A stretch of DNA of 64,000 nucleotides, from NCBI GenBank assembly GCA_003327435.1, contig QOQV01000006.1:1-64000 (forward strand). Direction: 5' to 3'. The notes beneath the pieces are model-generated. The model did no database searches. It saw only the letters and a list, made by a program, of their open reading frames with translations, and was not told the DNA's origin. A program made the position numbers and the translations under genes. Each line of letters begins with the position of its first letter. Within the stretch, counting starts at the first letter, position 1. Below, in pieces: positions 50,798-63,442 of the stretch. The DNA is from Ignavibacteriota bacterium (GTDB lineage: Bacteria; Bacteroidota; Ignavibacteria; UBA10030; BY39).

Positions 50798-50992
50798 ATG
50801 GCAAAAGCTCAATCATTTGCTGAAAAAGCTGCAAAAGCTGGAAAATTAAAATATAAAAAATGCCCAAAGTGCGATAATATGATGGAACCATATCTTGTCG
50901 TTACAGGTGAACTGAGCCCATCTGGAACCTGGAAATTTAATCAACGTCGTGTGAAAGTATGTAAATGTAACGAAAAAGAGGTTTTTGCATAA
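50798..50992 (+). CDS. small zinc-ribbon-like protein, unknown function
   Basis: A 64-aa basic protein with an Ala/Lys-rich N-terminus and C22-x2-C25 plus C55-x-C57, spaced like a small zinc ribbon or rubredoxin-like knuckle. 'WKFNQRRVKVCKCNEKEV' closes it. AAGGAG (50781-50786) supports the start. It lies between the GAF protein and deoB. I know no function. DNA, RNA or ribosome binding is possible from its charge. Confidence 0.7.
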   Translation: MAKAQSFAEKAAKAGKLKYKKCPKCDNMMEPYLVVTGELSPSGTWKFNQRRVKVCKCNEKEVFA

Positions 50993-51006: not shown

Positions 51007-52200
51007 TTGATTCCAAAAATTCTTGTTATCATCCTCGATGGGGTAGGGGTCGGTGAACTTCCTGATGCATATTTGTATAATGATCAGGGTAGTAATACGC
51101 TTGGTAATATTTCTAAAGTTGTAAAAAATTTCGGCCTTAATAATTTGCAAAAAATGGGCATTGGAAATATTATTTCAATAGACTCAATACCTGCAACTGA
51201 AATTCCAATTGCTCATTTTGGAAAAATGGCTGAAAAATCAAAGGGTAAAGATAGCACGACAGGCCATTGGGAACTGATGGGACTTGTAACTGAAAAAGAA
51301 TTTCCAACTTATCCATCAGGTTTTCCAGAAGAATTACTTGATAAATTTTTAGAGTTTAACTCTCTAAATGGTTATCTTGGTAATAAACCAGCATCTGGAA
51401 CAGAAATTATAAAAGAACTTGGAGAGAAACATCAACAAACTGGTTATCCAATTGTTTACACATCTGCTGATTCGGTTTTCCAGATTGCTGCACACGAAGC
51501 GGTAATTCCCCTTGAACGGTTATACGAAATTTGTAAAGTTACAAGGATTCAAGTTTGTGTTGGAGAACACTCGGTAGCTCGTGTTATTGCAAGACCGTTT
51601 TTAGGTGAACCAGGAAATTACTATAGAACTCCTAATCGAAAGGATTTTTCTCTAAAGCCAAATGGAAAAACATTGCTTGATATCTTATATGAAAATAATA
51701 TCTTAACCATCGGAATCGGTAAGATTGAGGATTTATACGCGGGTATGGGGCTGAGACATATAGTTCATACCAAATCAAATCTTGAAGGAATTAAGGCAAT
51801 AATTCAGGAAAGCCGTAAAGTCGCAAACGGTTTAATTTTGGCAAATTTGGTGGATTTTGACCAATTATATGGTCATCGTAATGATCCTGAAGGTTTTGCT
51901 AAGGCTTTGGAAGAATTTGATGCAAAATTACCTGAAATAATTGAAACTTTAAACAGTTCAGATTGGTTAATAATCACAGCAGATCACGGGAATGACCCAA
52001 TTACTCCCAGTACGGATCATTCCCGGGAATATGTACCAATTCTGGTGTATAACAAAAATATTAAAACTGGAAAGAATATTGGTATTAGAAAAACTTTCGC
52101 CGATTTAGCCAAAACAATTGGAAACCTTTTTGGTCTAAATACTCAACTCAATCAGTTGAGCGGAGAAAGTTTTTATCATTTAATAAAAAGTGAGAATTAA
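51007..52200 (+). CDS. deoB: phosphopentomutase
   Basis: A 397-aa enzyme of the alkaline phosphatase superfamily. It interconverts (deoxy)ribose-1-phosphate and (deoxy)ribose-5-phosphate in nucleoside breakdown. Metal and active-site motifs: '[13 protein letters not shown]', phosphothreonine loop '[13 protein letters not shown]', '[13 protein letters not shown]', '[17 protein letters not shown]', '[21 protein letters not shown]'. TTG start chosen because it begins the conserved N-terminal strand. Two microcompartment vertex genes follow at once, which hints that nucleoside sugars may feed an encapsulated pathway. Confidence 0.96.
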
Positions 52201-52202
52201 AA

Positions 52203-52478
52203 ATGGTATTAGGAAAAGTTGTTGGAACAGTTTGGGCAACAAGAAAAGATGAAGAGCTTGTTGGCTTCAAATTTCAGATAGTTAAACATATTGGTCTGGA
52301 TTATAAACTAAAAGATACATTTGTGGTAGCTGTAGATACTGTACAGGCTGGAATCGGCGATATTGTATTGGTCTGCAGCGGTAGTTCAGCGCGACAGACG
52401 ACATTGACAAAGAACAAACCAGTTGATGCAGTCATAATGGCTGTTGTTGATAAGCTCGATATTGAGGAAGAAAACTAA
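52203..52478 (+). CDS. EutN/CcmL-family microcompartment vertex protein 1
   Basis: A 91-aa protein of the BMC-P (EutN/CcmL) family, whose pentamers cap the vertices of bacterial microcompartments. Hallmarks: 'LGKVVGTVWATRKDEELVGFKF' at the start, 'VAVDTVQAGIGDIVLVCSGSSAR' and 'KPVDAVIMAVVDKLD'. It begins 2 bp after deoB and its stop overlaps the start of a second family member. No hexameric shell gene is in the window. Confidence 0.92.
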   Translation: MVLGKVVGTVWATRKDEELVGFKFQIVKHIGLDYKLKDTFVVAVDTVQAGIGDIVLVCSGSSARQTTLTKNKPVDAVIMAVVDKLDIEEEN

Positions 52479-52768
52479 TGTTCTTTGCAAAAGTAATAGG
52501 AACAATCTGGGCTACTCGCAAGGATCCCAATACGGTTGGATTCAAGTTGCAACTAATTCAACCGTTAAATACACATCGTGAAAAAGCTGGAGATCCAATT
52601 ATTGCTGTTGATACAGTTGGTGCAGGACCTGGAGAAACTGTTTATTATATTACTGCCCGGGAAGCTGTAATTCCTTTACCAACTGAGCTTGCACCTATTG
52701 ATGCCACAATTGTAGGAATAGTTGATCGTATAGATGTTCATAAAAATTTTATAAAGAGTCAAAATTAA
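52478..52768 (+). CDS. EutN/CcmL-family microcompartment vertex protein 2
   Basis: A 96-aa BMC-P paralogue: 'FAKVIGTIWATRKDPNTVGFKL', 'IIAVDTVGAGPGETVYYITAREA', 'PIDATIVGIVDRID'. The ATG shares one base with the preceding stop (TAATG), so the two vertex proteins are translationally coupled. They differ clearly in sequence and may form mixed or separate pentamers. Confidence 0.92.
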   Translation: MFFAKVIGTIWATRKDPNTVGFKLQLIQPLNTHREKAGDPIIAVDTVGAGPGETVYYITAREAVIPLPTELAPIDATIVGIVDRIDVHKNFIKSQN

Positions 52769-52782
52769 TAAGAGGTAAATAA

Positions 52783-53643
52783 ATGGCAAAAATTGCAATA
52801 AAAGCTTATAGCAACCGAGAAAGTCAATCTCTTGAAAAATATTTACAGGAAATTGGAAAAGTTGATCTTCTAAGCCAAGAAGAAGAGATTGAACTCGCTC
52901 GTAGAATTAAAAAAGGTGATCAAAAAGCACTTGAAAAGCTTACCAAAGCTAATCTGCGCTTCGTAGTAAGCGTTGCAAAGCAGTATCAGAACCAGGGTTT
53001 ATCTCTTGGAGATTTAATTAATGAAGGAAACCTTGGATTGATCAAAGCTGCTAAAAGGTTCGATGAAACTCGTGGATTTAAATTTATTTCTTACGCAGTC
53101 TGGTGGATAAGACAGTCAATTCTGCAAGCGTTAGCTGAACAATCTCGTATTGTTCGACTCCCGCTAAATAGAGTCGGAGCGTTAAATAAGATAGGCAAAG
53201 CTTTCAGTACGCTTGAACAGGAGTTTGAACGAGAACCCAGTGCAAGTGAACTCGCACAGGAACTTGATATGTCTGCTTACGAAATTGCTGATACGTTGAA
53301 AATCTCTGGCAGGCATGTTTCAATGGATGCACCTTTTGTTCAGGGCGAAGATAGTAGATTAATTGACGTGATGCAGGACGAAAGAAGTCCAATGCCCGAT
53401 CATGAACTGATAAAGGAGTCTTTGGCAAAAGAAGTTGAAAGAGCTCTCAATACTCTTTCAGATCGTGAAGCAGAAGTTATCCGACTTTACTTTGGTCTCG
53501 GTAGAGAGCATTCTCTGACGCTTGAAGAAATTGGGGAAAAATTTGCATTAACACGTGAACGTGTACGCCAAATTAAAGAAAAAGCCATCAGAAGATTGCG
53601 ACACACTTCAAGAAGCAAACATCTTAGAGCATATTTAGGCTAA
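52783..53643 (+). CDS. rpoD: primary RNA polymerase sigma factor (SigA/RpoD, short form)
   Basis: A 286-aa sigma-70 factor. Region 1.2 '[20 protein letters not shown]', region 2 '[42 protein letters not shown]' with '[13 protein letters not shown]' for -10 recognition, region 3, and region 4 '[29 protein letters not shown]' for the -35. No region 1.1 or long spacer, as usual for the Bacteroidota/Chlorobi group. The TTG/TATATT promoters found here are presumably read by this factor. A strong terminator follows. Confidence 0.96.
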
Positions 53644-60220: not shown

Positions 60221-63200
60221 ATGCGCCGCCTCCCGAGCGCTAAAATAATATACAAATTTTTATTTATTCTCCTTGTTCTTGTAAATTTTTCACAAAGTCA
60301 AACAGATACTCTAACCATAGCAACTTATAACCTGCTGAATTATCCTGGGACGGATGCAACAATCCGAAATCCGTATTTTCGGGCAGTCGTGCATTCAATG
60401 AAACCTGATGTATTATTTGTCCAGGAAATGACCAGCCAGACGGGTGTTAATACATTCCTGAATGATGTGATGAATAAATACCAACCAGGTCTTTACTCAA
60501 GTGTACCCTTTAACGATGGTCCTGATACCGATAATAGCTTTTTCTACAGGTCGGATAAAGTAACGTTTCTTGGAGCATACTATATAAACACTGCTCTAAG
60601 AAGAATTGCTGAATATACATTCCGTCATAATCTTAGCGGAGAAATTATAAGGGTTTATTCTGTACATCTAAAAGCGTCACAGGGGTACGAACAGGATAGA
60701 TTAGCAGAAGCAACTATACTTAGAAATTACCTGAATAATTTATCAGCGGGAACAAATTTTATTGTAGGCGGGGATTTTAATATTTATACAAGTTCGGAAC
60801 CTGCATTTCAAAAACTTATCGGTAGTGAGTCAGATAATGATGGCAGATGTTTTGACCCTATTAATGCTGTTGGAGATTGGAGTAATAACTATGCATTCCG
60901 ATTTATTCATACTCAATCTCCCAGAGTTAGAGCTTTTGGCGGTGGTTCAACTGGCGGCATGGATGATAGATTTGATATGCAACTTATTTCGGAGAGCATG
61001 TTGGATAATATAATTGTATCCTCATACAAGGCATATGGTAACGATGGAAATCATTTCAACGATTCAATTAATCGATTACCAAATTATGCTGTTCCAGATA
61101 GTGTGGCAAATGGTTTACATTATGCATCGGATCATATTCCAGTAGTTGCAAAGTATGTTTTTACAAGTATGTTTGCTTTTAATTTAGTTAGCCCAGCAAA
61201 TAATTCTATACAGCAACCTGTTACAGGCCAATTATTGTGGAACAAATCAATCGGTGCAACTAATTATGATGTTTACCTTAGTACAAACAATCCACCAACA
61301 ACAATTGTAAGTTCAAATCAAACTGATACAGTTTTCAATTATTCCAATCTTATCTACAATACAAAATATTACTGGAAGGTTGTGGCAAAAAATGGAAGCA
61401 CTACATTAGAAGCTACTGGCTCTCCTTTTAATTTTACTACGATTGTACCAGCACCTCCAAGTTCATTTAATCTATTAACTCCAGCTGATAATTCTACAGA
61501 GCAACCACGGTCTGGATATTTATCCTGGAGTTCATCTTCAACAGCTAATACCTATGATGTGTATCTTGATACAATAGCTAATCCGACAACAATAGTAAGC
61601 TTAAATCAAACAGGATTATCATATTTTTATCAAAACTTGCTTGCTAACACTACATATTACTGGAAAGTGGTTGCTAAAAATGAATTTGGTTCTACTCAAG
61701 CGTCTAATTCACCCTGGAAATTTACAATTGCAAATGTACCACTTGCACCAACGAATTTGGTTGTAGACATTAAATCCTTTAATCAAATCCACTTACAATG
61801 GCAGGATAATTCAAATAACGAATTAGGTTATAGGGTCTATAGATATATTGGCTCAGGCAAAATCAATGTAAGTGGTGATTTACCTCCTAACACAACAAGT
61901 TTTCTGGATACTGGTCTCATACCCAACACTCAATATTTATATGAAGTGCTTGCTTACAATGAACAGGGCGAGGGTAATTTTGCAACAACAGAAACTTTTA
62001 CACATGCGCAGTCACCGTCGATAATGGATAAATATCCATATAGTACAAACTCAATATATTTAAATATCGAACCGAAAAATAACCCGTCTTATACTTTATT
62101 TGCGATAATGGCAACGGATGATACTTTAAATGAATATTTTGTACAAAATGATGGAAATCTTGGTCCTGCTAAGTACTGGCAAACCCTGAATAGCTGGTAT
62201 AGTAACGGTCCTATAAAAATTCTGAATTTGCCATCAGGAGTTTTATTTTACCTAAAAATATTTGCAAAAAATCAAGAAGATATTGAAGTCTCGTCTGAAT
62301 TTGATACTATCTCGACACAAATATTTTCTGTTGCAGCGAATGTTAATAAGGGATGGAACTTGGTTTCTGTTCCTGTCAAGCGCGGAGATATGAGAAAAGT
62401 TACAATTTTCCCGGACGGATCTTCCAGAACATATGCATTCGAAAATGGTTACATTGCTAAGGACACTCTCGAAAATGGTAAAGGTTACTGGCTGAAATAT
62501 AGCACAGCTATGAATATCGAACTTTCTGGAACACAAATTCTTGTTGATACATTCTTCTTGAGCCCTGGCTGGAATTTGATTGGTTCAATATCCAACCCTG
62601 TTGCTTTAAATCAATTAATTCAGGTACCAGAGAATTTAATTGTTTCAAATTTATATGCTTATGGTGATGGTTATCTATTTGCAGATACGATATTACCAGG
62701 TTTAGCGTATTGGTTAAAAGCCAATAGTGAGGGTTACCTGATTTTAGACGCTAATTACAAACAAAAAACAAAATCTACTTTTTATAATTTAGATTTTTCT
62801 AATTTAAATCAAATAACATTAAGTGATAATAATGGCAAAAAACAAACACTATATTTCAGCAGTAACCCAGAAAGTAATACTGAATTTTTTGAGCTACCAC
62901 CAGTTCCACCAGGTGATGCCTTCGATGCAAGATTTGAACCTTCATCAATTTTAGTTTCCTTTTTTGAAAAAAATGAGCATAAAATATTATTGCAATCCAC
63001 TGATAATGTATTGAATGTACGATGGAATATAAACGACGGAAAAGTTTATAAATTATTAGACAAGTCAGGAAATATCGATATAAGTATGATTGCTTCTGGG
63101 GCAACTCAAATTAATTATGGAAACACTAATAAGCTGTACCTTAAAGTAAATAAATCAGCTATTAAATCATCTGAAATCATGCAGTTCGAATTAATGCAGA

Positions 63201-63442
63201 ACTATCCAAATCCATTCAATCCAACCACAGTAATAAGTTACTCCATTCCTGATGAAGCGCTTGTGACTTTGGAAATTTATGATGTACTTGGGAGTAAAGT
63301 TGCAACTCTCGTAAATGAATTAAAAACTGCTGGAAATTATAACATTAATTTTGATGCATCCAATCTTTCTGGTGGAATTTATTTTTACAGGTTAACTGCC
63401 GGGAAGTATTCAAGCTTTAAAAAGATGGTTCTCATAAAGTAA
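60221..63442 (+). CDS. T9SS-sorted endonuclease/exonuclease/phosphatase-family protein
   Basis: A 1073-aa secreted protein. Signal peptide ~1-26, then an EEP-fold catalytic domain (~28-315) with the expected residues: 'IATYNLLNY' (Asn), 'VLFVQEM' (Glu, metal), 'VYSVHLKAS' (His), 'VGGDFNIY' (Asp, Asn) and 'ASDHIPVVA' (Asp-His). Three fibronectin-III-like modules (~316-605) follow, then the 'GWN...ELPPVPP' module also found in the protein at 40031, and a T9SS sorting domain (~985-1073, NYPNPFNPTTVISYSIP). It could degrade extracellular DNA or hydrolyse phosphodiesters of lipids or sugars; the family does not tell which. The N-terminus may start a few residues later, since MRRLPSAKIIYKF is longer than a usual n-region. 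Confidence 0.9.
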   Translation: MRRLPSAKIIYKFLFILLVLVNFSQSQTDTLTIATYNLLNYPGTDATIRNPYFRAVVHSMKPDVLFVQEMTSQTGVNTFLNDVMNKYQPGLYSSVPFNDGPDTDNSFFYRSDKVTFLGAYYINTALRRIAEYTFRHNLSGEIIRVYSVHLKASQGYEQDRLAEATILRNYLNNLSAGTNFIVGGDFNIYTSSEPAFQKLIGSESDNDGRCFDPINAVGDWSNNYAFRFIHTQSPRVRAFGGGSTGGMDDRFDMQLISESMLDNIIVSSYKAYGNDGNHFNDSINRLPNYAVPDSVANGLHYASDHIPVVAKYVFTSMFAFNLVSPANNSIQQPVTGQLLWNKSIGATNYDVYLSTNNPPTTIVSSNQTDTVFNYSNLIYNTKYYWKVVAKNGSTTLEATGSPFNFTTIVPAPPSSFNLLTPADNSTEQPRSGYLSWSSSSTANTYDVYLDTIANPTTIVSLNQTGLSYFYQNLLANTTYYWKVVAKNEFGSTQASNSPWKFTIANVPLAPTNLVVDIKSFNQIHLQWQDNSNNELGYRVYRYIGSGKINVSGDLPPNTTSFLDTGLIPNTQYLYEVLAYNEQGEGNFATTETFTHAQSPSIMDKYPYSTNSIYLNIEPKNNPSYTLFAIMATDDTLNEYFVQNDGNLGPAKYWQTLNSWYSNGPIKILNLPSGVLFYLKIFAKNQEDIEVSSEFDTISTQIFSVAANVNKGWNLVSVPVKRGDMRKVTIFPDGSSRTYAFENGYIAKDTLENGKGYWLKYSTAMNIELSGTQILVDTFFLSPGWNLIGSISNPVALNQLIQVPENLIVSNLYAYGDGYLFADTILPGLAYWLKANSEGYLILDANYKQKTKSTFYNLDFSNLNQITLSDNNGKKQTLYFSSNPESNTEFFELPPVPPGDAFDARFEPSSILVSFFEKNEHKILLQSTDNVLNVRWNINDGKVYKLLDKSGNIDISMIASGATQINYGNTNKLYLKVNKSAIKSSEIMQFELMQNYPNPFNPTTVISYSIPDEALVTLEIYDVLGSKVATLVNELKTAGNYNINFDASNLSGGIYFYRLTAGKYSSFKKMVLIK

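Follow-up and report, generated by a model that had tools for sequence, protein, structure and literature searches.

We analysed a 64,000-nucleotide stretch (hereafter, the window) of contig QOQV01000006.1 from an Ignavibacteriota bacterium (assembly GCA_003327435.1), in which the phosphopentomutase gene deoB is followed by two genes for microcompartment (BMC) vertex proteins, BMC-P1 and BMC-P2. Considered together with the gene content of the remaining genome and of related genomes, deoB-BMC-P1-BMC-P2 probably belongs, as a satellite operon, to a deoxyribose-phosphate metabolosome with dispersed genes. The initial annotation of this locus had suggested a satellite of a nucleoside-sugar compartment, a suggestion supported by the shell genes and tagged enzymes that we found elsewhere in the genome. 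The unit consists of the following genes:

51007..52200, + strand: deoB, phosphopentomutase, 397 aa, TTG start (NCBIfam NF003766, 510 bits; TIGR01696, 463 bits).
52203..52478, + strand: BMC-P1, microcompartment vertex (pentamer) protein, 91 aa (PF03319, 1.7e-28; PDB 5v74/6mzx, 2e-20).
52478..52768, + strand: BMC-P2, second vertex protein, 96 aa (PF03319, 1.6e-26; PDB 5v74, 3e-13).

Open reading frames, spacing and profile matches confirm the earlier description of two coupled BMC-P genes 2 bp behind deoB: two base pairs separate deoB from BMC-P1, and the stop and start codons of BMC-P1 and BMC-P2 overlap by 1 base (TAATG). Both products, which are 40% identical to each other, cover the PF03319 profile (EutN/CcmL proteins) over its full length and match solved vertex proteins, with 5v74 as the top structure. 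DeoB bears no extension resembling an encapsulation peptide (EP) at either end and is probably a cytosolic supplier of 2-deoxyribose-5-phosphate acting outside the shell. As had been noted, no shell hexamer gene lies nearby; PF00936 (BMC-H/BMC-T) was found neither in the window nor in the rest of its 174-kb contig.

The draft genome (2.63 Mb, 23 contigs, 98.6% complete) nevertheless encodes further shell proteins, answering the possibility, raised at the outset, that no other shell gene would exist. Profile searches recovered two neighbouring BMC-H genes (contig C17), a gene for a PduT-like tandem-domain BMC-T that immediately follows a PduS/RnfC-like gene (C19), and one more BMC-P gene (C7), bringing the PF03319 genes in the genome to three, with pairwise identities of 33-47%. 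The second BMC-H (L008:9964-10599) has a long C-terminal tail of ~120 residues past the BMC domain. In this draft assembly, the shell genes occupy separate places (C17, C19, C7, C22), each deep within its contig or among unrelated neighbours. PF00936 and PF03319 genes are nowhere found together in this genome, which agrees with the FRAG type of compartment discussed below. The deoB locus satisfies the definition of a satellite locus in that PF03319 is its sole shell class and PF00936 occurs elsewhere in the genome; Axen et al. (2014) additionally ask for a non-satellite locus with both shell classes, and this genome has none.

The initial annotation had proposed that BMC-H/BMC-T, deoC and an aldehyde dehydrogenase with an encapsulation peptide be sought in the genome, and all of them were found on other contigs. 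DeoC (C8; TIGR00126, 281 bits) begins with MENSEIERIIQLVLKDY; this amphipathic stretch and the cysteine-rich segment after it belong to an extension that places 80 aa ahead of the aldolase domain. The cysteine-rich motif, CKDGxCxDxLCVVHNK, comes after the EP-like helix and before the aldolase domain (L103-L132, L163-L189) and is degenerate in some families. The acetylating acetaldehyde dehydrogenase (AldDH; C15), which scores 651 bits against TIGR02518 (cut-off 620), terminates in the EP-like sequence GITEEEVERIIREFSKR, and a like C-terminal helix is present in 30 of the 30 AldDH rows examined, this genome's own included. An acetate kinase gene lies near the AldDH gene. Two ribose-5-phosphate isomerase B (RpiB) genes are present, an ordinary copy on C16 and a second on C12 whose product carries a 67-residue N-terminal domain (L321). 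Residues 1-60 of the latter match EutQ (NF012001, E = 1.2e-6; hhalign 96%), while a Pfam search of the RpiB and DeoC extensions returned no named family. One pyrimidine- and two purine-nucleoside phosphorylase family genes are also encoded. We set aside a PF01791 match on C16, first read as DeoC, which is a class I fructose-bisphosphate aldolase, and three more aldehyde dehydrogenases (C18, C22 and C16), which score as ordinary non-acetylating superfamily members and show no EP-like end by eye.

To what extent these enzymes accompany vertex proteins was surveyed for BMC-P, AldDH, deoB and the DeoC N-terminal extension in 149 draft genomes of the class, 56 with and 93 without BMC-P. Acetylating AldDH occurred in 51/56 BMC-P genomes vs 1/93 others (Fisher P = 7e-33), and deoB in 41/56 vs 4/93 (P = 2e-19). 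The DeoC extension was present in 49 of the 52 sampled BMC-P genomes and in 1 of 36 others (P about 3e-20), the N-termini having been taken from 90 loci, of which one was truncated by the end of its contig and one, a second DeoC copy of genome G065, was scored as a negative. The sole BMC-P-negative genome with the extension, G139, has a completeness of 78%, and BMC-P is present in the other members of its genus. Three BMC-P genomes lack the extension: G065 and G119, which carry other BMC loci (PVM-like and EUT), and G096, which has a divergent DeoC. The extension is also missing from G053, a BMC-P-negative member of the otherwise positive family f2, an observation that speaks against phylogeny as the sole cause. 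The RpiB N-domain follows a similar distribution, being present in all 33 long-copy genomes examined (32 BMC-P-positive genomes and G139) and in none of the 8 BMC-P-negative genomes whose reading frames are long.

The linkage to deoB is likewise not confined to this genome, as the initial annotation had allowed it might be, and recurs in Ignavibacteria, Melioribacteraceae, Rhodothermia and Calditrichota. A scan with BMC-P1 over 84,980 species, one genome per species, yielded 51 loci at a minimum of 62% identity, with relatives up to 98% identical; they belong to the Bacteroidota group and Calditrichota, under labels such as Ignavibacteria, Kryptonia, Melioribacteraceae, Rhodothermia and Calditrichota, the closest being labelled Ignavibacteria, Chlorobi and Bacteroidota. 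Of the related loci, 48 could be tested, and in 35 of these the BMC-P pair is preceded by deoB; by coordinates, deoB is within ~1 kb of the pair in 36 of the 41 class genomes having both. Their adjacency is therefore not due to chance. In many relatives, further genes separate deoB from BMC-P1. We had expected deoC at this place, but it holds two other genes (L018:3534-4271, L017:7252-7973, with equivalents in about a dozen loci), the first gene without family and the second weakly VapC/PIN-like (E = 2.5e-4).

What we observe are the genes and the families they belong to, conserved extensions, linkage to deoB and a strong pattern of co-occurrence; from these we infer that a shell assembles, that enzymes are encapsulated, that flux is catabolic and that DNA or nucleosides serve as substrate. 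The shell would be made of the two BMC-H, the PduT-like BMC-T and the three BMC-P paralogues. Nucleoside phosphorylases would free 2-deoxyribose-1-phosphate, which the untagged DeoB would convert to 2-deoxyribose-5-phosphate in the cytosol, outside the shell. Inside, peptide-targeted DeoC and AldDH would turn deoxyribose-5-phosphate into glyceraldehyde-3-phosphate and acetyl-CoA, with acetaldehyde kept confined within the shell, and the PduS-like flavoprotein may pass electrons through the BMC-T. The second RpiB, a dedicated copy, may be attached to the shell through its EutQ-like N-terminal domain, since that domain matches EutQ residues 1-60, whose H1/H2 part binds the shell.

Two genes flank the unit:

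50798..50992, + strand: o64, conserved cysteine-bearing 64-aa protein without family (no Pfam match; context only).
52783..53643, + strand: RpoD/SigA-family sigma-70 factor, 286 aa (Sigma70 regions 1.2-4; context).

The o64 gene ends 14 bp 5' of deoB, a position it keeps in most Ignavibacteria loci, and the sigma gene starts ~14 bp 3' of BMC-P2; this close packing makes co-transcription of the sigma gene with the deoB-BMC-P unit likely. The best NCBIfam match of the sigma factor is RpoD NF004208, at 304 bits and under that model's cut-off. The o64 protein contains several cysteines and is 34-94% identical among the Ignavibacteria loci keeping it. No Rfam element was found near the operon, and matches to a Bacteroidota-type -7 element in the window were no more frequent than chance.

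With these neighbours in mind, the position of deoB could merely reflect an inherited gene order around a sigma-factor operon, with the compartment using another substrate. A block GGDEF-o64-deoB-P1-P2-sigA is indeed common to many Ignavibacteria, and deoB is missing from some of the BMC-P families. In 12 loci, moreover, sigA is retained with no detected deoB, so that deoB is not obligatory. However, the sigA neighbour, kept in most Ignavibacteria loci, is not kept in Rhodothermia loci, and in 8 loci, several of them from Rhodothermia, sigA is not adjacent and yet the BMC-P pair is still preceded by deoB; inherited order around sigA is therefore not the explanation everywhere. The presence of deoB also follows that of BMC-P across the class, and the independent extensions of DeoC, RpiB and AldDH indicate the same pathway, so we regard this reading as unlikely. 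Alternatively, the compartment could run mainly in reverse, or act as an acetaldehyde/NADH sink, with AldDH reducing acetyl-CoA and DeoC and RpiB condensing the aldehyde into sugar phosphates. The DeoC and acetylating AldDH reactions are reversible, and a PduS-like electron-transfer protein is encoded. Such condensation of aldehyde into sugar phosphates has been proposed for Atribacteria BMCs (PMC6281690). Yet deoB and the nucleoside phosphorylases suit a catabolic supply of deoxyribose-5-phosphate, and a predominantly reversed or sink role appears quite unlikely here. That the two pentamer proteins work outside any microcompartment is very improbable: no hexamer gene lies close to theirs, and it has been termed unexpected that BMC-P paralogues are so numerous (PMC8217296), but BMC-H and BMC-T genes are present in the same genome and EP-tagged cargo enzymes co-vary with the presence of BMC-P.

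Several points weigh against a dispersed deoxyribose-phosphate metabolosome. The scatter of its genes over the genome gives no sign of shared regulation, and about one quarter of the BMC-P genomes, families f5 and f19 among them, lack deoB. PduL (PF06130) is absent from the genome; other phosphotransacylases (Pta-type) and alcohol dehydrogenase were not searched for. In addition, the EP calls are based on sequence pattern and hydrophobic moment, and the Fisher tests ignore the relatedness of the genomes.

Elsewhere in the window, positions 60221-63442 encode a secreted protein that combines an endonuclease/exonuclease/phosphatase domain with a sorting tail for type IX secretion; it could be an extracellular nuclease and as such would fit the use of DNA. 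A series of large secreted proteins of up to 3218 aa spans positions 2042-36686; in the one examined, SdrD-like repeats occur together with a type IX sorting domain.

Among described compartments, the architecture resembles FRAG, whose defining features are shell genes spread over several places and a BMC-P triplet (one member each from the grey and orange clades and one other) and which has been reported as enigmatic, without obvious signature enzyme or assigned function (Sutter et al. 2021, PMC8217296). The genome shares with FRAG its scattered shell genes, three BMC-P, an AldDH and the occurrence in Ignavibacteriae and relatives, and differs in that tagged DeoC and RpiB, together with the deoB linkage, supply candidate signature enzymes and a putative function. 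The enzymes themselves point to the sugar-phosphate-utilization (SPU) type, which is defined by DeoC (pfam01791) and RpiB (pfam02502) and for which the use of DNA degradation products has been proposed (PMC4207490, PMC8217296). DeoC, RpiB and AldDH bear targeting-type extensions in both, and the same use would apply here. In SPU loci, however, the enzymes sit with the shell genes, whereas here they are dispersed among unrelated genes (DeoC on C8, RpiB on C12, AldDH on C15, BMC-H on C17) and not clustered with shell genes in one main locus; the RpiB extension is EutQ-like rather than of the EP type, PduL is missing, and deoB forms an operon-like unit with vertex genes. The initial annotation had tied the cleavage by DeoC to planctomycete-type (PVM) loci; in the literature, DeoC is the SPU signature and the one named for PVM is a class II aldolase (PMC8217296, PMC4207490).

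The published SPU arrangement does exist within the class, in genome G085, as a compact locus rpiB(EP)-deoC(EP)-BMC-P-AldDH(EP)-BMC-H, and the DeoC extension of G085 has the cysteine motif and a GAxR segment in common with the dispersed DeoCs. The G085 locus also encodes a 133-aa protein (L286:15380-15781) with a EutQ-N-like domain (hhalign 95%) and a C-terminal helix of EP-like character, which makes it a candidate linker of shell and cargo. For EutQ of Salmonella, binding to the shell has been assigned to H1/H2 within residues 1-60, and binding to cargo peptides to H3/H4 (PMC12487888). The RpiB N-domain thus covers the shell-binding part of the Eut linker, although EutQ fuses this domain to a cupin with acetate kinase activity and here it is fused to RpiB, as a putative shell binder. 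The Haliangium ochraceum (HO) type likewise has a BMC-P triplet, a DeoC with an EP tag is encoded elsewhere in some HO genomes, and the satellite of type I HO contains two BMC-P genes together with an aldolase (PMC8217296); the HO type differs in its recognised main locus, and the texts on HO that we found describe no deoB linkage. In the open-licence literature, we found neither a link between phosphopentomutase and BMCs nor a deoxyribose-phosphate function for FRAG.

Judged by its genes, the system is thus a FRAG architecture with SPU enzymes, predicted to work like SPU, but it is not filed as an SPU locus. We tentatively extend this to the idea that FRAG of the Ignavibacteria group might be dispersed, constitutive deoxyribose-phosphate metabolosomes, in which the EutQ-like N-domain of RpiB doubles as a shell-cargo linker and the CKDGxCxDxLCVVHNK motif of DeoC adds a regulatory or metal-binding step. 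FRAG, so far listed as enigmatic, would gain candidates for its missing enzymes in tagged DeoC, RpiB and AldDH encoded far from the shell genes, and a candidate substrate supplier in the deoB beside its vertex genes, so that its function becomes directly testable in cultured relatives. More generally, the cargo of dispersed compartments may be findable not through gene neighbourhood but through targeting extensions whose presence varies together with that of shell genes.
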